The notes under the pieces are model-generated. The model did no database searches. It had not been told where the DNA came from and saw only the letters and a list, made by a program, of their open reading frames with translations. DNA of 64,000 nucleotides, from contig NZ_CP152020.1 in assembly GCF_038624605.1 (NCBI RefSeq), positions 992,001 to 1,056,000 of the forward strand. The letters are read 5' to 3'. The position numbers and the translations under genes are program-made. This DNA is from Psychrobacillus sp. FSL K6-4046 (lineage in GTDB: Bacteria > Bacillota > Bacilli > Bacillales_A > Planococcaceae). Position 1 is the first letter of the stretch; every line of letters begins with the position of its first letter. Of this stretch, positions 85 to 45,680 are shown one piece after another.

Positions 85-1173
85 ATGGATTTGTCTATCT
101 TTATGTCGTATGTCTTTTGGAAGAACCTTGGTATTTCCATTGCCATACTGTTAGTTTTCCTTATTTTGAGAAAAATTTTCTCGAAATATGTATTTAACCT
201 ATTGATCAAGCTAAGTGATAAAACACCGACTGATGCATTGACTCACCTTTTTCGGTCCTTCGAAAAGCCTATTCAATGGATGTTTATCATAGTCGGAATT
301 TATGTGGCGGCTAGCTTCTTTCCACATTTTGATGAAACAAATAAATTATTTCTGGTGCTTATAAGAGTCTCCTATATTATTCTGATCAGCTGGGGATTAT
401 ACAATATGTCCTCTGATTCCTCTACTTTCTTCACTAAAATGAGAAACAGATATAATTTGGATATTGATGATATACTCATTCCTTTTCTTTCAAAGGCATT
501 GCGAGTTATTATTGTTGTCATAAGTATTAGCGTAGTTGCTGAGGAATTTGGTTATAACGTGAGTGGATTTGTTGCGGGACTAGGCTTAGGTGGAGTAGCA
601 ATCGCCTTTGCTGCAAAGGATGCGCTTTCTCATCTATTGGGTGGCTTTGTTATTATTACAGAAAAGCCTTTTAGAATTGGTGACTGGATATTGACTCCTG
701 ATGTGGAGGGGACGATTGAAGAAATTACTTTTCGTAGTACAAAAATCCGTACCTTTTCACAAGCTATTGTTACTGTTCCGAATGCCATGATTGCCAATGG
801 ACCAATTACCAACTGGAGTAAAATGGGGAAAAGGCAAATTAACTTTAATCTAAGGGTATCTCAAGAGACGCCGAAGGAAAAATTAGAGCTTGTAGTAAAA
901 GAAATTGAACAGCTAGTGAGCAAGCATACAGGTGTCCATCCTGAAACAATTTTTGTGAAATTTGATGCATTTAAAGAAAATGGCTATGACATTTTCTTAT
1001 ATTTCTTTACGAACACAACGGTTTGGGCAGAGTTTTTAAAAGTGAAAGAGGATATTAACTTTGGTATTATGGAAATTTTAGAACGAGAAGGAGTTTCTAT
1101 AGCCCTTCAAAGTCGAAAAGTTTATGTGGATAATGAATTAATTCAGAATGAACCAAAGAGCATAGAGGAATAA
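85..1173 (+). CDS. MscS-family mechanosensitive ion channel
   Basis: The 362-residue protein is an inner-membrane small-conductance mechanosensitive channel that would release solutes on hypo-osmotic shock. Hydrophobic segments lie at about residues 12-28, 60-78, 87-105, 135-152 and 158-178. The last is the Gly/Ala-rich pore helix (GLGLGGVAIAFAAKDALSHL), followed by the beta-domain sequence KPFRIGDWI typical of MscS. The C-terminal third is the cytoplasmic alpha/beta cage. A good RBS (AGGAGG) lies about 7 bp before the ATG. It is close to the B. subtilis YkuT/YhdY group; which paralogue it is cannot be decided. A terminator follows directly. Confidence 0.93.
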   Translation: MDLSIFMSYVFWKNLGISIAILLVFLILRKIFSKYVFNLLIKLSDKTPTDALTHLFRSFEKPIQWMFIIVGIYVAASFFPHFDETNKLFLVLIRVSYIILISWGLYNMSSDSSTFFTKMRNRYNLDIDDILIPFLSKALRVIIVVISISVVAEEFGYNVSGFVAGLGLGGVAIAFAAKDALSHLLGGFVIITEKPFRIGDWILTPDVEGTIEEITFRSTKIRTFSQAIVTVPNAMIANGPITNWSKMGKRQINFNLRVSQETPKEKLELVVKEIEQLVSKHTGVHPETIFVKFDAFKENGYDIFLYFFTNTTVWAEFLKVKEDINFGIMEILEREGVSIALQSRKVYVDNELIQNEPKSIEE

Positions 1174-1177
1174 TAAG

Positions 1178-1208
1178 TACCGCTGGGATGATTCTCAGCG
1201 GTATTTAT
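1178..1208. terminator. Bidirectional Rho-independent terminator
   Basis: The arms TACCGCTG and CAGCGGTA (1178-1185, 1196-1203) form a hairpin between two convergent genes. It overlaps the stop codon of the minus-strand gene that ends at 1205. Confidence 0.7.
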
Positions 1209-1744
1209 ATGGACTTAAGTTTTTTTGAAAAAATTACTGGGGCTTGTGTCGGGATAGACGTGTCTATTACAGCAATTTCTTTAATATATCCCTTTATGTT
1301 CTGAGCTTGAGTAGTGCAATAGAGGAAAGCTTCTAATAATTTTTGGTTGGATAAACGATTTGCTATAGTACAGTGTGGAATCCATTGTCCTGGATTATAC
1401 AAGGATTGTGCGTCATTAAAGTCCTTAAAATAAGTATGAAAGTCGTTGTGAAAATGAAAAAGATCCTCTGTAATAACAGGTGTATAAAAAAGTGTACCAG
1501 ATCCCGTAAACGATCCAATAGAAGGAAACGTGATTTCAATACTTTTTTTATCTGCTAAGTAGCTATCTAAGCGATCTACAAAAGATTTAATATCTAATTT
1601 GCTGTAACTTGCAATAGTAATATGTGGATTCCGATCACTTACCTCAAATGCATAGGAAGAAATAGATTCATCCTTTAACTCTTGCCAAAGTTTCAAAATC
1701 CGCTTATTTAACTGATCATCAAATAACGCAATTATTCCATACAT
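1205..1744 (-). CDS. 2H phosphoesterase / 2'-5' RNA ligase-like protein
   Basis: This 179-residue soluble protein carries two H-x-T/S-x signatures, NPHITIASY near residue 40 and IPHCTIANR near residue 126. They define the 2H phosphoesterase superfamily (LigT/2'-5' RNA ligase-like, YjcG). The two histidines would form the active site acting on 2',3'-cyclic phosphates or related nucleotides. The substrate is unknown. It is a single-gene unit convergent with the mechanosensitive channel gene. Confidence 0.8.
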   Translation of the reverse strand: MYGIIALFDDQLNKRILKLWQELKDESISSYAFEVSDRNPHITIASYSKLDIKSFVDRLDSYLADKKSIEITFPSIGSFTGSGTLFYTPVITEDLFHFHNDFHTYFKDFNDAQSLYNPGQWIPHCTIANRLSNQKLLEAFLYCTTQAQNIKGYIKEIAVIDTSIPTQAPVIFSKKLKSI

Positions 1745-2037
1745 ATTATTCGCCTTCTTTTTTAAAAAATTCTTTTTTATTATCCAACGATTTATATATC
1801 TGATAAAAGATTGGAAAGTATGCCACTGAAGATAAGATTCAATCAGTTAATACTAATTTTGAGTAGACTAAAAAATATTTCGTTTGATTATATCATATAA
1901 ATATTTCATTTATTGATAAAAGTTGTTAAAAGAAAGGATATTTTCATGCTCTTGTACTATTTGCTCGGCAGTATAAACAGATGAATATTGCAAAAGATAG
2001 GAAGGAATCACAGCAATTAATGAGAGGAGTGTTTTTA

Positions 2038-2214
2038 ATGGAGAGTATTCGCGAAGGGTTAATACCAACAGTTTTAGGGACAGCCGTAACTACAACTGGA
2101 GTAGCGCTTAGGAACAATAGAAGCATTTCACCATTAATCACGAGTTCGATTATCGGATTTGGCTTAGCGCATATTGTGTTGGGGGCAATCGATTTAGTTG
2201 AACATCGCCGCTAA
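2038..2214 (+). CDS. Small hydrophobic membrane protein
   Basis: A 58-residue protein with two hydrophobic stretches (about residues 7-23 and 31-50) and a short charged tail ending EHRR. The ATG at 2038 is chosen because a GAGAGGAG ribosome binding site lies just upstream; the frame is open further back, to 1981, without such a site. Similar small two-helix proteins occur next to envelope genes in Bacillales. No function can be assigned. The next gene is also a small membrane protein. Confidence 0.6.
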   Translation: MESIREGLIPTVLGTAVTTTGVALRNNRSISPLITSSIIGFGLAHIVLGAIDLVEHRR

Positions 2215-2292
2215 AGATTCAGGGTGGAAGGAACTTTCCTTCCATTCTTACTACCTAGCTCCACCTATACAAATTGAAGGAGGTGTTGGTCC

Positions 2293-2676
2293 GTGTCAGT
2301 ACTATCTCGGATTGCTTTAGCATTAGTTATCATTGGTGCATTAAACTGGGGTTTAATCGGATTTTTTGAATTTGACTTAGTTGCATCTATTTTTGGTGGA
2401 CAAACTTCTGCCTTTGCTCGTGTTGTGTATGCACTTGTTGGTTTAAGCGGGATTGCTTGTATACCACTACTGTTTGCTCAAGAGGACGAAGAAAGCAGTA
2501 CTTCTACCAGCGATGGGAAAAGTCAAAATTACAGAAATCTAAGCTACGAAACAGAATTTGCTGAAGAAGAGGAAATTATTGTGGCAGATCCACAAACTAA
2601 TGCTTCATCGGATAATTCTACAACAAACTCGCCTACAAATTATTACAAAAAAACTTCTAAGAAAAAGAAGAGATAA
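2293..2676 (+). CDS. DUF378 family membrane protein (YuzA-like)
   Basis: The first 65 residues match the DUF378 pattern: a first helix with ALNWGLIGFF, a linker with FDLVASIFGG, and a second helix ALVGLSGIACIPLLF. The remaining 60 residues are an acidic then Ser/Thr/Asn-rich tail ending in a Lys cluster, longer than in the minimal family (about 70 residues). It starts at GTG 2293, 9 bp after GAAGGAGGTG. Function is unknown; it is probably an integral membrane protein with a cytoplasmic low-complexity tail. Confidence 0.85.
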   Translation: MSVLSRIALALVIIGALNWGLIGFFEFDLVASIFGGQTSAFARVVYALVGLSGIACIPLLFAQEDEESSTSTSDGKSQNYRNLSYETEFAEEEEIIVADPQTNASSDNSTTNSPTNYYKKTSKKKKR

Positions 2677-2697
2677 TTTTGTACGGCATCAAAAAAT

Positions 2698-2732
2698 CTG
2701 ACGCAACGTTAAAACGTGCGTCAGGTTTTTTG
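2698..2732 (+). terminator. Rho-independent terminator
   Basis: The arms CTGACGCAACGTT and AACGTGCGTCAG are followed by GTTTTTTGTTTT, just after the DUF378 gene. Confidence 0.85.
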
Positions 2733-2819
2733 TTTTATAAAGGAGTTTAAGAATAAATAATCGAATATAAATATTAACCACGGAAAGCGGTGGAACGAGT
2801 AAATTATTGGAGGAACAAG

Positions 2820-3563
2820 ATGAATACCAAGACATTAGAAATAAACAAAACAAGCTGGGAAAAGTCTGCAAATCGTTTTTATGGTAGAAATCCTCTTCCC
2901 GAGTATGGACCAATGGCTCCGCGTGAAGAACATTTAAATCTATTAGGAGAAGTAAAGGATTTGAAGGTTTTAGATATCGGCTGTGGCAGTGGTCATTCCC
3001 TACAATATATGGCGAAGAGAGGAGCAGGAGAGCTTTGGGGAATTGACTTATCAAACAACCAGCTATCTGCTGCAAAAGAATTATTGAAGGATTATGGATC
3101 TTCCGTAAAACTAATTCAATCTCCTATGGAAACTAATCCTGGATTGCCATCAAACTATTTTGACATCGTTTATTCGATTTTTGCACTAGGATGGACTACT
3201 GATTTAGACAAAACATTAGCCAATATCTATTCTTACTTAAAAGTAGGAGGCATTTTTGTATTCAGCTGGGAGCATCCTCTACATAGCAGAGTGAAGCATG
3301 AGGAAGGGAAGTATCTCTTCAACAAATCCTATCAAGAGGAAGGGCCGTATGACCACGATTTTTGGGATACACAAGCAATCATGCAACAATTTAAAGTGAG
3401 TACTTATATTAATAGACTTATAAAGGCTGGGTTTAAAATTGAAGAGGTTGTAGAAGAGGTCTACATGGCAGAGAAGGATTTAGAGCGACATGTAAATAGG
3501 TGGTACTCCTTTGAAAAAGCACAACTTATACCGACAACATTAATTATTAAGTGTAGTAAATAG
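2820..3563 (+). CDS. SAM-dependent class I methyltransferase
   Basis: 247 residues. Motif I VLDIGCGSGHSL at about residues 50-61 binds S-adenosylmethionine; post-I is LWGIDLS and motif IV is FDIVYSIFALGW. It starts at ATG 2820 because GGAGG sits 7 bp upstream; the in-frame ATG at 2790 has no such site. It is followed at 18 bp by a metallopeptidase gene and then a second methyltransferase, apparently one transcript. The substrate is unknown. Confidence 0.85.
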   Translation: MNTKTLEINKTSWEKSANRFYGRNPLPEYGPMAPREEHLNLLGEVKDLKVLDIGCGSGHSLQYMAKRGAGELWGIDLSNNQLSAAKELLKDYGSSVKLIQSPMETNPGLPSNYFDIVYSIFALGWTTDLDKTLANIYSYLKVGGIFVFSWEHPLHSRVKHEEGKYLFNKSYQEEGPYDHDFWDTQAIMQQFKVSTYINRLIKAGFKIEEVVEEVYMAEKDLERHVNRWYSFEKAQLIPTTLIIKCSK

Positions 3564-4439: not shown

Positions 4440-5218
4440 CGAATCGCATTCAACTAGATAATTTAGAGGAATATGATGATCCAGCAGCCTATGACCAGGA
4501 AAATAATCATTACGTAGGGGAACTTCCATTATTACTAGAATGGACAGGGAAAGTAAATGGTCCAATTATAGACTTAGCCTGTGGAACTGGGAGGCTGACC
4601 TTGCCATTAGCCAAAGAGGGCTACCAATTAATCGGTATTGATGTTCATAAAGGAATGTTGGAGCAGGCAGCTAAAAAAGCCGGAAAGCTTAACTTGGATA
4701 TACAGTGGCTGCAGCAGGATTGTACAAATTTCCAAGCAGGCATTAGAAGTCCGTTTATTTATATGGTGGGTAATTCCATACAGCATTTCCATACAAATGA
4801 GGCACAGGATCAACTTTTATCCTCTATAAAACAACATCTTCAGGAAGATGGTATTTTTATATTTGATACTAGATTTCCTTCTGCCGAGGAGCTTCTTCAA
4901 CCGGCAACAGAGGAGTATTGGAAAACTTATATGGATGGAGAATACGAGGTAGATGTCTACACAATTAGTAGATACGATTCGTTAAAACAAATCCAGCATT
5001 ACACAACCATTCGAAAATACAAAGATCATAGTGCAATAATAATTGATGAAAAGGTAACTAATATAAGCTTACGATGTACCTATCCCTTAGAGATGGAGAG
5101 GTTATTAAAAGAACATAACCTGGAAATTGTAAATGTCTATAAAGATTGGAAGGGCACACCGCTTGATTCCGAAAGTGATAATATGGTGTATATATGTAGA
5201 AAACTTCCTCCTAGATAA
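4436..5218 (+). CDS. SAM-dependent methyltransferase
   Basis: 260 residues. Motif I IIDLACGTGRLTLPLA is at about residues 43-58, followed by LIGIDVHKGMLEQA and IYMVGNSIQHF. It overlaps the preceding metallopeptidase gene by 4 bp and ends the cluster, as a terminator hairpin follows about 35 bp later. It is only distantly similar to the first methyltransferase of the cluster. The substrate is unknown. Confidence 0.85.
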   Translation: MTNRIQLDNLEEYDDPAAYDQENNHYVGELPLLLEWTGKVNGPIIDLACGTGRLTLPLAKEGYQLIGIDVHKGMLEQAAKKAGKLNLDIQWLQQDCTNFQAGIRSPFIYMVGNSIQHFHTNEAQDQLLSSIKQHLQEDGIFIFDTRFPSAEELLQPATEEYWKTYMDGEYEVDVYTISRYDSLKQIQHYTTIRKYKDHSAIIIDEKVTNISLRCTYPLEMERLLKEHNLEIVNVYKDWKGTPLDSESDNMVYICRKLPPR

Positions 5219-5252
5219 ACTAAGCCATTGGGAAATAACTAGTCAATAAATA

Positions 5253-5404: not shown

Positions 5405-5534
5405 TAACCATTGTATAATAACTACTACCAGGGGGATAATCTTTGATTTCACCAACAACTTTATATCCTTTTAGTTCATAGAAAAAACGAGCTTGAAATT
5501 CAAAAGTGTAACATTTCACAAGCCATATCCGAAA
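5388..5534 (-). pseudogene. C-terminal remnant of a GNAT acetyltransferase
   Basis: The minus strand reads about 48 codons, open only from an in-frame stop just upstream of 5534. They encode the last strand-helix-strand of a GNAT acetyltransferase, with FEFQARFFYELKGYKVVGE then IKDYPPGSSYYTMV. This is the usual end of small antibiotic- or amine-acetyltransferase-like GNATs (FYxxxGYxxxGxxxDYPPG). The acetyl-CoA-binding part and start are missing. The stop TAG falls inside a boundary repeat, as also happens for the gene ending at 7550. Confidence 0.6.
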
Positions 5535-5584
5535 TCAACTTAATGTTTTGGACATAAAAAATAGACCATAAATGATGGATTATT

Positions 5585-5609
5585 TTGCTAATGCACGCGT
5601 TAGTTTAAG
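5585..5609. repeat. Module-boundary repeat
   Basis: CTAATGCACGCGTTAGTTTAAG is an imperfect palindrome (CTAA/TTAG arms with GC inside). It belongs to the AACTAACG...TTTAGT family that recurs through this island. Confidence 0.55.
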
Positions 5610-5885
5610 TACAATACTTCACAATCTTTTCTATGACTTTATGAACTTAATTCCTTAAATGCGTTATCAATGCAAAAATTACGCTACCTTTTTGGGTTCT
5701 AGCCAGATTTTTGTGGATTTACAACGATTAGTAATATGCAAAATCTTATGCAATAACTGAGATTGTACAGCATTGTTGAATTAACGGGAATAGTGTGACA
5801 ATATATCAATTTCAAATTTATCCCTTGAACCTCAAGTTACTTGAGGTTTTATAATGAACTTATACTTTTGTTGGGAGGAATTTTG

Positions 5886-42310: not shown

Positions 42311-42733
42311 ATGGCTAAGTCCTTTAAAGAAATAAAACAAACATTACTTATGCTTAAAAGTTTGGATAGGCGCATAGCTCAAAACTTTGAAAAGAAGACA
42401 GGTATTAGCCTAACTAGATATGAAATGCTGAACACCATATTTGAACGCGCACAGCTTTCCCAAATAGAGCTACAGCAAACGTTGAAAATAGATCAAGGGG
42501 CAATCACAAGACATTTAAAAATACTTGAAGAGAAAAACTTTGTCGTTCGCAATCGTAATAAGCAAAATAATAGAGAAGTCATTGTCCAAATCACGGAAAC
42601 TGGTATCGCTACTTTGGAAGACTGTGATTTAGGTAAAAATGAATTCATAGACGAATTATTTAATGGATTTACCGATCAAGAGATTCAACAGCTTCAAACA
42701 CTAGTCAAGAAATTGATTGATAACACGAACTAA
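42311..42733 (+). CDS. MarR-family transcriptional regulator
   Basis: 140 residues. Winged helix: LTRYEMLNTIFERAQLSQIELQQTLKIDQGAITRHLKILEEKNFVVRNRNKQNNREVIVQIT at about 33-95. It has no cysteine pair suited to redox sensing in the DNA-binding part. It lies 34 bp before a nitroreductase gene that it probably controls, a common pairing (compare YodB/YodC, MhqR). Start ATG with AGGAGTGG upstream. Confidence 0.9.
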   Translation: MAKSFKEIKQTLLMLKSLDRRIAQNFEKKTGISLTRYEMLNTIFERAQLSQIELQQTLKIDQGAITRHLKILEEKNFVVRNRNKQNNREVIVQITETGIATLEDCDLGKNEFIDELFNGFTDQEIQQLQTLVKKLIDNTN

Positions 42734-42767: not shown

Positions 42768-43394
42768 ATGCAAAAAACACATACAACAATCGACCAATTG
42801 ATTCATGAAAGAAAATCAGTTCGTAAATATAAAGAAAATGTCGTTATTCCACATGAGGATCTTCAAACTTTGTTACAAAAAGCAATTACTGCACCTTCCT
42901 CAAGTAATATGCAGCCATGGCGCTTTCTAGTTATTGAGGACCAGCAGGTTAAAAAGGAATTGCGACCAATCGCTAATAATCAAGAACAAGTAGAGACATC
43001 ATCGGCTATTATCGCTGTACTCGGTGACCTAGAAATGTACAAGAATACAGAAAAAATTTATAATACAAATTTTGAAAAGGGCTATATGAGTAGAGAAATA
43101 GCTAATTTCATGATAGAAAGCTCACTTTCTTTATACGGTAATCTTCCTGAAGAAGTCATGAAAAATATTGTTCATTTTGATGCAGGACTTGTATCCATGC
43201 AGATCATGCTATTAGCGAAGGACATGGGCTATGACACAGTTCCAATGGGCGGATTTGACAAAGTGAAATTTGCGGAGAAATTTAATTTACCTCAAAATGA
43301 AATCCCTATTTTACTTATTGCAATTGGTGAAGCAGCAGCTCCTGCTTATGGATCTTCACGTCTTCCTCTTGAACAAATAGTAAGATATATTTAA
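42768..43394 (+). CDS. Nitroreductase family protein (FMN-dependent)
   Basis: 208 residues. N-terminal FMN-binding RKSVRKYKENVVIPHED and ITAPSSSNMQPWRFLVI are typical, as is the C-terminal GYDTVPMGGFD and ILLIAIGEAAAP. It reduces nitro compounds or quinones with NAD(P)H as donor. Follows the MarR regulator in what looks like a two-gene operon ending in a terminator. Neither gene belongs to the B. subtilis order here. Confidence 0.92.
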   Translation: MQKTHTTIDQLIHERKSVRKYKENVVIPHEDLQTLLQKAITAPSSSNMQPWRFLVIEDQQVKKELRPIANNQEQVETSSAIIAVLGDLEMYKNTEKIYNTNFEKGYMSREIANFMIESSLSLYGNLPEEVMKNIVHFDAGLVSMQIMLLAKDMGYDTVPMGGFDKVKFAEKFNLPQNEIPILLIAIGEAAAPAYGSSRLPLEQIVRYI

Positions 43395-43431
43395 ACAAAA
43401 AGAGGGCAGCGCAAAGCCGGCCGCATAATAA

Positions 43432-43478
43432 AAAACAGTTTCAATTTTACTTATTGTAAGATTGGAACTGTTTTTTTG
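43432..43478. terminator. Rho-independent terminator
   Basis: AAAACAGTTTCAAT and ATTGGAACTGTTTTTTT. Confidence 0.85.
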
Positions 43479-43488
43479 TAGTTTTAAG

Positions 43489-43788
43489 CTAATCTCTTGT
43501 AAAAATTATGATTGCACCAGCTAAAAAAACACCTATTAAAATTATTAGTAAAAGACTAAAAACTGACTGATTTGAAAAATACCTAATAAAAACAATAGGT
43601 GTGCCAATCATAGCCAAAATGGAAACAAACTTCATATAGCGGACAACTTTTGGGGAAACCTCAGGTTCTTCTTCGTACATCCAGCGTTTTCCCCATAAAA
43701 AGCTTTCTTCAGGAAAATTGTAAGTCCAAATAAAGAAGGCATAAAGCGGTATCATTAAGACTACTAGGATGAAGATTTCGCCTATCAT
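43489..43788 (-). CDS. Small membrane protein
   Basis: 99 residues from ATG 43788 (GGGGGGAAAACAAA upstream); the frame continues to 43830 without a site. Three helices at about 4-22, 50-68 and 76-95; the first loop contains FPEESFLWGKRWMYEEEPEVSPKVVRYMKF. No family recognised. Alone between the nitroreductase and the AAGTGTTGC array. Confidence 0.6.
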   Translation of the reverse strand: MIGEIFILVVLMIPLYAFFIWTYNFPEESFLWGKRWMYEEEPEVSPKVVRYMKFVSILAMIGTPIVFIRYFSNQSVFSLLLIILIGVFLAGAIIIFTRD

Positions 43789-43972
43789 TTTGTTTTCCCC
43801 CCGGACAATAAAAGAATATAGATCACCCAAACTAAACTTTGGTTTTACTTTAATACGGTTGAGAATAGTGCAGGTTCCAAATTTAGATGAATTTTACATT
43901 TAAAATGAATGAAACCCTGGGGATAAGTAAAAGTATTTGGAGGAATCCGGTGAAAATGTCCGGGACGAGGCA

Positions 43973-44344
43973 AAGTGTTGCGTCAAAATAGAAAGTGTTG
44001 CAGAAACGGGTAGAAGTGTTGCGCGAAATTCAAAAGTGTTGCGGAAAACGAGTTAAGTGTTGCGCGAAATTAAAGTGTTGCGGAAACGGGTAGAAGTGTT
44101 GCGCGAAATTCAAAAGTGTTGTGGAAAACGAGTTAAGTGTTGCACGAAATTAAAGTGTTGCGGAAACGGGTAGAAGTGTTGCGCGAAAATCCAAAGTGTT
44201 GCAGAAAACGGGTTAAGTGTTGCGCGAAATTCAAAAGTGTTGCGGAAAACGAGTTAAGTGTTGCACGAAATTAAAGTGTTGCAGAAACGGGTAGAAGTGT
44301 TGCGCGAAATTCAAAAGTGTTGCAGATAACCCGCTAACTGTTGC
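43973..44344. repeat. Tandem array of AAGTGTTGC monomers, about 20-bp period
   Basis: Eighteen copies of AAGTGTTG start at 43973, 43993, 44014, 44034, 44055, 44073, 44094, 44114, 44135, 44153, 44174, 44194, 44215, 44235, 44256, 44274, 44295 and 44315; a nineteenth, degenerate copy (AACTGTTGCG) is at 44337. Two variants alternate: core + GGAAA(A)CGRGT and core + CGAAATT. Spacings of 21, 20, 21, 18 form an 80-bp higher-order unit (43993, 44073, 44153), with one extra dimer. No ORF runs through it. Confidence 0.95.
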
Positions 44345-44415
44345 GCCAAACGCTGAACCTGCTGGGGAGTGGTTGAGTGAATTAAAAGGGCTCTGAAATC
44401 TATAAGCTTATGAAG

Positions 44416-44444
44416 TTGACGAATAGTCTGAAATAGTATAAAAT
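44416..44444 (+). promoter_or_regulatory. SigA-type promoter of the his operon
   Basis: TTGACG (44416-44421), 17-bp spacer, TAAAAT (44439-44444), 57 bp before hisZ. No T-box or leader is evident in the short 5' region. Confidence 0.75.
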
Positions 44445-44501
44445 TTATTTAATTTATTATATTAGCACTCTACTACAGTGAAGTGAATTAGGGGTGGGAC
44501 A

Positions 44502-45680
44502 ATGAGTAAAATTCAAATGTTTGAGAAGCCGCTTGGTATGCGAGATTCGTTCCCAGAGGTTAATGAGCAAAAAGAATACATAAGATCCGTTGCGAGAGAG
44601 TTTATTCGCACCAAAGGATATGATTTTATAAAAACACCATCAGTTGAGTATTTTGAGACGATTGGGAAGGCGTCGGCAATTGATGAGTCCTCATTATTTA
44701 AATTGGTGGATAACCAAGGAGAGATGCTCGTTTTACGACCTGATATGACGACTCCTATCGCTAGAATAGCAGCATCCAAGCTATTAAAAGAAAAGAATCC
44801 ACTTCGCCTTGCGTATTATGCCAATGTATTTCGTGCGCAGCAACGGGAGGGTGGAAGGCCAGCGGAATTTGAACAGCTAGGCTTAGAGCTGATCGGTGAT
44901 TTTAGTCCTTACGGAGACAGTGAAATTATTTATACGGCTGTGGAGCTCATTAAAGCGTTAGGCGTGGAACATTTTCAAATTACGATTGGGCACGCGGGGC
45001 TTTTGACAGCTATTCTCTCAAATAATACAAACAAGTCGGAGCAGGTGGAAACGCTAAGAATGCTCCTAGTCGAAAAGAATTTTGTAGGATTTATGAAAAT
45101 GCTGGATGACTTAGAGCTATCCGCTTTTCAACAAGAGAATTTGACTATGCTGGTGGATCATACGATGGCAGCGAAATCCGTGGAAGATTTTAGACAGCTT
45201 TTGACAAACGAGCAGCAATATTTAGTAGATCAGATTATACAGCTCCAGCAGCTATTAGAGCTTCAGTTGAGTGATCCCTCTGTTTATTCCTTCGACTTTT
45301 CATTAGCAAGCCATATGAGCTATTACACAGGCATGCTGTTTGAGATACATGCTGCTGGCAGTGGCTTTCCTCTTGGAAATGGTGGAAGGTATGACGAGCT
45401 ATTTAAGCAATTTGAACAAAATGTAGGGGCAACCGGCTTTGGATTAAGAGTAGATCGGCTGCTAGAGGTTCTCCCTAAAAAAGAGAAAAATGAAAAACAT
45501 ACACTTATTTTATTTGATAAAGGCTCCTTCCTAAAAGCTAATGTTCTAGCAGAGGCAAGACGTAGTATTGGGGAGCGCGTAACGCTTCAATATGAGGGCA
45601 GTGTCCATGATTTAGAGGCCTACCAATATAGCTTTCAGGAAATAATTAAGGTAGTAGAAGGTGGTTTTGCAGGTGAATGA
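44502..45680 (+). CDS. hisZ: ATP phosphoribosyltransferase regulatory subunit HisZ
   Basis: 392 residues, a class II aminoacyl-tRNA-synthetase paralogue (HisRS-like) without tRNA charging. [57 protein letters not shown] and [12 protein letters not shown] are recognisable. It is needed to activate the short HisG that follows. The 3' end overlaps hisG by about 8 bp. Confidence 0.96.

Follow-up and report, generated by a model that had tools for sequence, protein, structure and literature searches.

A dispersed family of intergenic repeat arrays with 21-bp pitch and lineage-specific cores in Psychrobacillus and some other Bacilli

An array of short direct repeats occupies positions 43973..44344 (plus strand) of the window, the 64,000-nucleotide stretch of the Psychrobacillus sp. 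FSL K6-4046 genome that was analysed. Its right neighbour is hisZ (44502..45680, plus strand), which matches the NCBIfam models NF008941 (equivalog) and TIGR00443 above cut-off; on the left lies an ORF of 113 amino acids with a TTG start and without a family match (43489..43830, minus strand), the 5′ end of which faces the array. Genes for a MarR-type regulator (42311..42733, plus strand) and a nitroreductase family protein (42768..43394, plus strand) are inserted between a yvoF-like gene and hisZ, and a terminator-like hairpin, a consensus match only, is found 3′ of the nitroreductase gene (43431..43475, plus strand). On the downstream side of the array a promoter-like site, TTGACG-17-TAAAAT, precedes hisZ (44416..44444, plus strand). 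This is also a consensus match only, with one site found as compared to 2.8 in shuffled sequences; its location between array and hisZ agrees with an earlier note on this DNA, which had placed the array before the his promoter. The same note regarded the array as lying in an insertion that splits yvoF from hisZ. The MarR gene, the nitroreductase gene and the 113-residue ORF do intervene, but the array is separate from this insertion. In P. faecigallinarum Sa2BUA9 (G002) the end of the nitroreductase gene precedes hisZ, yet the array is absent there, and in several species the yvoF-like gene abuts the gap and a 21-bp array of different sequence stands before hisZ. Array and insertion are therefore separate things. 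In the hisZ leader, from the promoter to the hisZ start (window 44440-44500), a TATTAGYWCTCTAGTG...AAAGT-like motif is readable in most of the hisZ upstream regions compared within the genus and may represent a conserved leader.

In the array, 18 exact AAGTGTTG units are followed by a degenerate last core, AACTGTTGC (44336..44344, plus strand). The exact units start at 43973, 43993, 44014, 44034, 44055, 44073, 44094, 44114, 44135, 44153, 44174, 44194, 44215, 44235, 44256, 44274, 44295 and 44315, which gives steps of 20,21,20,21,18,21,20,21,18,21,20,21,20,21,18,21,20,21 bp up to the degenerate core. The eighteen monomers at 18-21-bp steps and the 21-bp base pitch that had been read from the sequence are thus recovered, with steps of 18, 20 and 21 bp. 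The short 18-bp units (44055..44072, 44135..44152 and 44256..44273, all plus strand) are not peculiar to this array, as they are also present in further arrays with the same core. According to the unit profile each unit consists of the 9-bp core AAGTGTTGC, followed by R, two free bases, an A-rich pair and a spacer. Two variants had been said to alternate strictly; as [GA]GAAA and [GA]CGAAA they do so in units 2-17, but the first unit has GTCAAA at this place and the eighteenth AGATAA. Likewise, the 80-bp sets of four exist, but they are about 90% alike and there are no exact copies. Tandem Repeats Finder recovered block periods of 80, 121 and 41 bp (scores 497, 503 and 461), in agreement with the proposed higher-order duplication. 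Such duplication accounts for copy number, not for a conserved core beside drifting spacers.

No ORF of at least 60 amino acids overlaps the window array, as expected for a non-coding element, and the 20- and 18-bp steps would disrupt any reading frame, so a coding repeat was rejected. An assembly artefact, named in the earlier note as grounds for discarding the array, is unlikely because the array recurs at this position in a separate assembly of the same species, Psychrobacillus sp. BL-248-WT-3 (G011). The copy number at the hisZ site differs between the two: counted alike, there are 15 units in G011 and 19 in the genome under study (G000).

A search of this and related genomes, as the earlier note had proposed, showed that the window array belongs to a dispersed family. 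Paired AAGTGTTG sequences at 15-25-bp steps occur 54 times in G000, and the reversed control pattern is found 0 times. The pairs lie at 12 places, one of which (3854496) is probably a chance pair, leaving 11 or 12 intergenic places, and the arrays of this genome are intergenic and on both strands. An ORF of at least 80 amino acids crosses the array in 9 of the 18 loci examined; we take these ORFs as spurious, since the 20- and 18-bp steps would break their frames. Among 19 Psychrobacillus genomes, AAGTGTTG pairs are present in three (G000, G011 and G002), and three others have a single occurrence of the reversed pattern. Four array places (L055, L057, L059 and L062) are matched in all three AAGTGTTG genomes. 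A sister unit of 21 bp, AACCTTGC, adjoins some arrays and elsewhere stands alone; arrays of this unit were observed at further places of G000 (171686, 650071-650509 and 742306-742662). Two arrays are adjoined by another repeat, GTCCCTGTGTCA plus CACACAATT and farther on GGGATTTAT, in L053 (reverse strand, about 5468-5822, with two occurrences) and L054 (about 5072-5232). The pair at genome position 3854496 (L065, near 4976) reads AAGTGTTGTGGATATGTGGATAAGTGTTG and stands beside an ORF that we take to be rlmH-like; it resembles DnaA-box DNA and, rather than an array, is probably a sequence that fits the core pair by chance. Distance from the origin was considered as a factor and rejected: in G000 the arrays are separated from the nearer contig end, the assumed origin, by 0.67-1.52 Mb, but G493 has matches at 71 and 93 kb.

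The three AAGTGTTG genomes yielded 292 units from 28 loci, chosen by core similarity. Not counted among these loci are L058 and L065, where matches were single or due to chance, and L218, L220, L233 and L234, which have no AAGTGTTGC array. Among the 222 units that are 21 bp long, the core, on which selection was made, carries 1.40-1.96 bits per position, the purine following it 1.11 bits and the A at position 14 1.35 bits, as compared to 0.02-0.34 bits for positions 15-21. Between loci of G000, identity is 0.83-1.0 in the core and 0.24-0.41 at positions 15-21. Degraded units that are skipped appear as 38-42-bp steps, of which this set has few, 17 against 243 single steps. Comparison of G000 and G011 covered 63 of the 82 units of ten orthologous loci, with partners picked by spacer likeness; the other 19 had no equal-length unit or too dissimilar a spacer. 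Differences amount to 19/567 in cores and 56/721 in spacers (p=7e-4), and to 600/7926 at the 4-fold sites of nine of the ten loci. The core therefore changes at less than half of the 4-fold rate (p=7e-5), whereas the spacer equals it (p=0.83). The non-coding flanks differ at 196/6796 (2.9%), and with 3.4% the core is no slower than these flanks, which may themselves be constrained. Among 64 matched units, four differ in length, and three of these stand at the end of an array.

These rates bear on the idea that the arrays are functionless tandem repeats growing by slippage. Copy number does differ between strains (the 19 and 15 units at hisZ), block duplications are visible, and among the matches listed in a scan of genome contigs, period-21 repeats of many kinds occur across many bacteria. 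Neutral growth, however, would not keep the core slower than 4-fold sites next to spacers evolving at the 4-fold rate, nor would it let core and pitch persist while spacers differ between loci, and we consider it very improbable.

Other members of the genus carry the same design with other cores, so that the description of a single array given in the earlier note is incomplete. Pairs of CTTGCGATT with 21-bp pitch are found in 13 of the 19 Psychrobacillus genomes and in 0 of the 3 AAGTGTTG genomes (reversed control 0); no genome has both kinds of pair. A third core, TAGTTGGAATTTT, is present in 4 of the 19 (reversed control 0). The region upstream of hisZ illustrates this variety: it contains AAGTGTTGC arrays in G000 and G011, CTTGCGATT units at 21 bp in G006, G008, G012 and G014 with a remnant in G017, and TAGTTGGAATTTT units at 21 bp in G007 with single copies in G001 and G016, and no array was seen there in the remaining nine of the 19 genomes. 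Flanks of the AAGTGTTG arrays were compared to those of CTTGCGATT arrays, for which 7 of the 13 genomes supplied 40 stretches, together with the hisZ loci. At four sites one core kind per lineage occupies corresponding gaps in the same orientation. L064 and L063 have orthologous genes on both sides (L063 with an extra ORF), and at hisZ and L062 only the genes on the right side are common. If 13 and 28 gaps are drawn from a total assumed to be 800-3000, the chance of at least four shared sites ranges from 7e-4 to 4e-6; the test took 28 CTTGCGATT gaps, where the flank comparison resolves about 22-25. Either ancestral arrays have swapped their core everywhere, or arrays prefer the same gaps.

Outside Psychrobacillus, the letters of the core proved not to be special. 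TTGC was tried as a universal core and rejected: a five-unit TTGC pattern matched 41 of 398 Bacilli genomes and its reversed control 35 (hand count), which indicates that both sets hold unrelated repeats. Of ten control genomes that were viewed, four (G338, G024, G178 and G232) share the design by eye with other cores, and the other six have near-identical or coding-like units or 7-base repeats. Three-unit scans with family-level and order-level scope covered the identical 261 genomes, and the family scans matched 19 versus 5 and 11 versus 4 genomes for pattern and reversed control (controls hand-counted). In total, seven cores in eight genomes of other genera show a core plus free spacer at several loci, as judged by eye: GTTTGTTTGCRG in G105 and G124, TTTGCTTGCA in G204, TAATTGCACG in G493, TTTACTCYCGTTC in G338, GARACGTTRA in G024, AGTTCTCGTT in G178 and AACGTTGCATACTTT in G232. 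Both here and in Psychrobacillus, spacers are dissimilar between loci and core and pitch persist.

Some of these genomes have arrays of defined size. Six units make up 25 of the 46 arrays of the eight genomes, including 13 of 15 in G105 and G124, and none in G338, G178 or G232. All six arrays sampled from G204 end in TTTGCTTGCAAGT; five have six units, with steps of 21,21,21,21,20 bp, and one has five. For one G204 array the orthologous arrays of two relatives (88% identity) were compared, and the steps of 21,21,21,21,20 bp are identical in the three species, with pairwise changes of 2/60, 6/60 and 7/60 in the core and 18/54, 21/54 and 17/54 in the spacer. The gene preceding this array was searched in 31 genomes, 15 of which gave no match, and in 13 more distant relatives (72-74%) no array was found within 330 bp after the same gene. 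A defined length and end, absence after the same gene in these relatives, and the different cores in corresponding gaps, as target preference would produce, are what could be expected of a non-autonomous mobile module, in which a block of about six units would be copied by a putative recombinase or transposase into terminator-adjacent gaps and the core would be the site of the enzyme. On the other hand, an idle insertion is not expected to show constraint on its core and its spacing where orthologous sites are fixed; in G338, G178 and G232 the number of units per array is not constant, and no target-site duplication or clean empty site has been demonstrated. We regard this origin as unlikely.

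The spacing of units follows a narrow set of values. Steps were tallied over nine sets without restriction on length, with orthologous arrays counted separately, so that the counts are not independent. Steps of 18 bp occur 30 times, 19 bp 13 times, 20 bp 36 times, 21 bp 637 times, 22 bp once, 26 bp once, 28 bp three times, 29 bp 24 times and 30 bp once. Within 10-35 bp there are 716 steps at 18-21 bp, 28 at 28-30 bp, and one each at 17, 22 and 26 bp, so steps of 22-27 bp are almost missing between the two classes. Double steps of 38-42 bp number 50, with strays at 4, 17, 50, 55 and 60 bp. Arrays of CTTGCGATT often repeat as 4×21+29 = 113 bp, and those of AAGTGTTGC as 4×21+18 = 102 bp, or 80 bp in the window array; one CTTGCGATT array (L310) runs as 4×21+18. 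The 18- and 29-bp units differ by 11 bp, one helical turn, and the larger repeats correspond to 102/10 = 10.2 and 113/11 = 10.3 bp per turn. This suggests that the 18- or 29-bp unit corrects helical phase; alternatively, each may derive from one founder module by shared ancestry.

In other genera the arrays lean toward the 3′ ends of genes. The 46 arrays in the eight genomes of other genera lie in gaps of type −− (24), +− (12), ++ (9) and −+ (1), and 45 of them touch a gene 3′ end. Background gaps comprise 32 co-directional, 7 divergent and 5 convergent ones at the same loci, and 151, 61 and 39, respectively, in Psychrobacillus. Relative to these two backgrounds, divergent gaps hold fewer arrays than expected (p=0.03 and 2e-4), and the enrichment in convergent gaps is not significant (p=0.11 and 0.09). 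Psychrobacillus arrays also use divergent gaps, 8 of 51 in all. Among the 12 AAGTGTTG arrays only the window array does so; the 39 CTTGCGATT arrays contribute seven cases, and four of these represent one orthologous gap. The 3′ location is therefore a bias and no rule. A terminator-like site within 120 bp points at the array in 56 of 102 cases, as compared to 265 of 1900 random placements, coding sequence included in the latter. In co-directional gaps of the eight genomes the strands are used unequally, 24 −− to 9 ++ (p=0.014), an imbalance not required of a purely symmetric element.

Proximity to 3′ ends and terminator-like sites, together with this strand bias, could point to a role as RNA, either as a loading site for Rho or as a site for an RNA-binding protein in 3′ transcripts, and the empty centroid that the window array gave in two of three folds of its minus strand fits such a role. 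In the rut site of a Rho-dependent terminator, the RNA that has the sense of the facing gene is richer in C than in G. Reading from the nearest facing 3′ end takes the plus strand of the array in 39 of 88 cases and the minus strand in 49, and C exceeds G in that RNA in 45 of the 88 arrays, with no skew toward the facing gene. The rut reading was rejected on these figures, and a structured RNA element was rejected as well: six folds of the window array revealed no RNA structure (z −0.24 to 2.03), and the single Rfam match in window 43380-44560 lies outside the array (E 0.98, 19 bits versus a gathering score of 54). Nor is there an obvious RNA cause for the near absence of 22-27-bp steps. An RNA role thus appears highly improbable, and on balance we favour DNA rather than RNA as the working form.

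No named family that was compared fits the arrays, in line with the statement in the earlier note that no named element has this structure, and no description of such arrays was found in the open-licence literature, although subscription papers could hold one. STAR elements are closest in kind, and REP/BIME elements and plasmid iterons are also near. The REP/BIME elements of enterobacteria are palindromic hairpin units present in many copies at intergenic 3′ locations, with proposed roles in supercoiling and at transcript ends. Similar to these, the arrays occur in many intergenic copies, but they are non-palindromic direct repeats, and no RNA structure was evident in the window array. The iterons of plasmids are direct repeats, with units of about 20-22 bp, and are confined to one origin that adjoins a rep gene. 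The arrays share with iterons a row of direct repeats of about two helical turns, and since there are several per chromosome they might be thought to serve as iteron-like or ParB-like replication or segregation sites that organise the chromosome. Unlike an origin, they are scattered over intergenic gaps on both strands, at 11 or 12 chromosomal places in G000; the neighbours of the window array, hisZ and the 113-residue ORF, include no initiator gene, and a search of 72,556 plasmid records with the window array gave no match at E 1e-5. Such a function is quite improbable.

CRISPR spacers measure roughly 25-40 bp. The free part of the array unit is about 8-12 bp, and is inherited vertically with drift, and the arrays are present at many places, in contrast to a CRISPR locus. 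The alternation of conserved repeats with unlike spacers of fixed length is shared with CRISPR arrays and with false-CRISPR tandem repeats (PMC5294841). The STAR elements of Staphylococcus have a GC-rich 14-bp core, T[GAT]TGTTG[GT]GGCCC[CA], successive cores being separated by 40 bp or more, and stable positions, with spacers that mark lineages and no function assigned (PMC3532100). Both are dispersed intergenic direct repeats with a short conserved core and variable copy number, but the arrays have many cores of about 9-13 bp at 21-bp pitch, and the window family has the core AAGTGTTGC at a pitch of 18-21 bp.

The reading that we prefer, tentatively and with a little less than even confidence, is that the arrays are helix-phased rows of binding sites for a putative lineage-specific DNA-binding protein and perhaps mark the boundaries of transcription units. 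A sequence-specific protein would recognise the core and, as the head-to-tail sites recur about every two helical turns, would form a phased row along the DNA, in which the odd 18- or 29-bp unit would reset the helical phase. Core and protein would co-evolve; the core differs between lineages at constant pitch. The loaded row would mark a neighbouring transcription-unit boundary by blocking read-through or by constraining supercoils; a similar action has been proposed for the REP/BIME elements of enterobacteria. The arrays are missing from many genomes and are therefore not essential. A broader proposal, possible but made with somewhat more reserve, is that Bacilli have a previously unnamed class of chromosomal elements: dispersed arrays of two-turn pitch in which the core is replaced genome-wide, from lineage to lineage, along with a putative fast-evolving DNA-binding protein. 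Such a class would parallel, in bacteria, the satellite arrays that co-evolve with the proteins bound to them, and would mark transcription-unit boundaries. If the protein exists, several genera of Bacilli would possess an unnoticed chromosome-binding system of which the specificity shifts by lineage while the geometry stays constant. This would offer a natural series of specificity switches for studies on concerted change of a protein and its sites throughout a genome, and repeats that a gene finder might mistake for short ORFs would acquire a role. The varying copy number makes the arrays candidate loci for strain typing.

The contig scan mentioned above returned at least 120 stretches and at least 80 loci among the matches listed, and matches outside Bacilli were not used as relatives. 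Among the matches listed, L097 and L100 (Filobacillus milosensis) and L104, L152 and L154 (Sporolactobacillus) are period-21 arrays, for example of AATTGTTGCACTCACAAGAAT and AAAAGTTGCTCCGAATCCCGG, with little diverged spacers; these are perhaps young members of the same class. Also among the matches listed, the 21-bp repeats of L137 and L138 (Bacteroidales) read as KVATSDQ-like peptides in stop-free frames of 1977 and 996 nt, and are probably coding and unrelated to the arrays.
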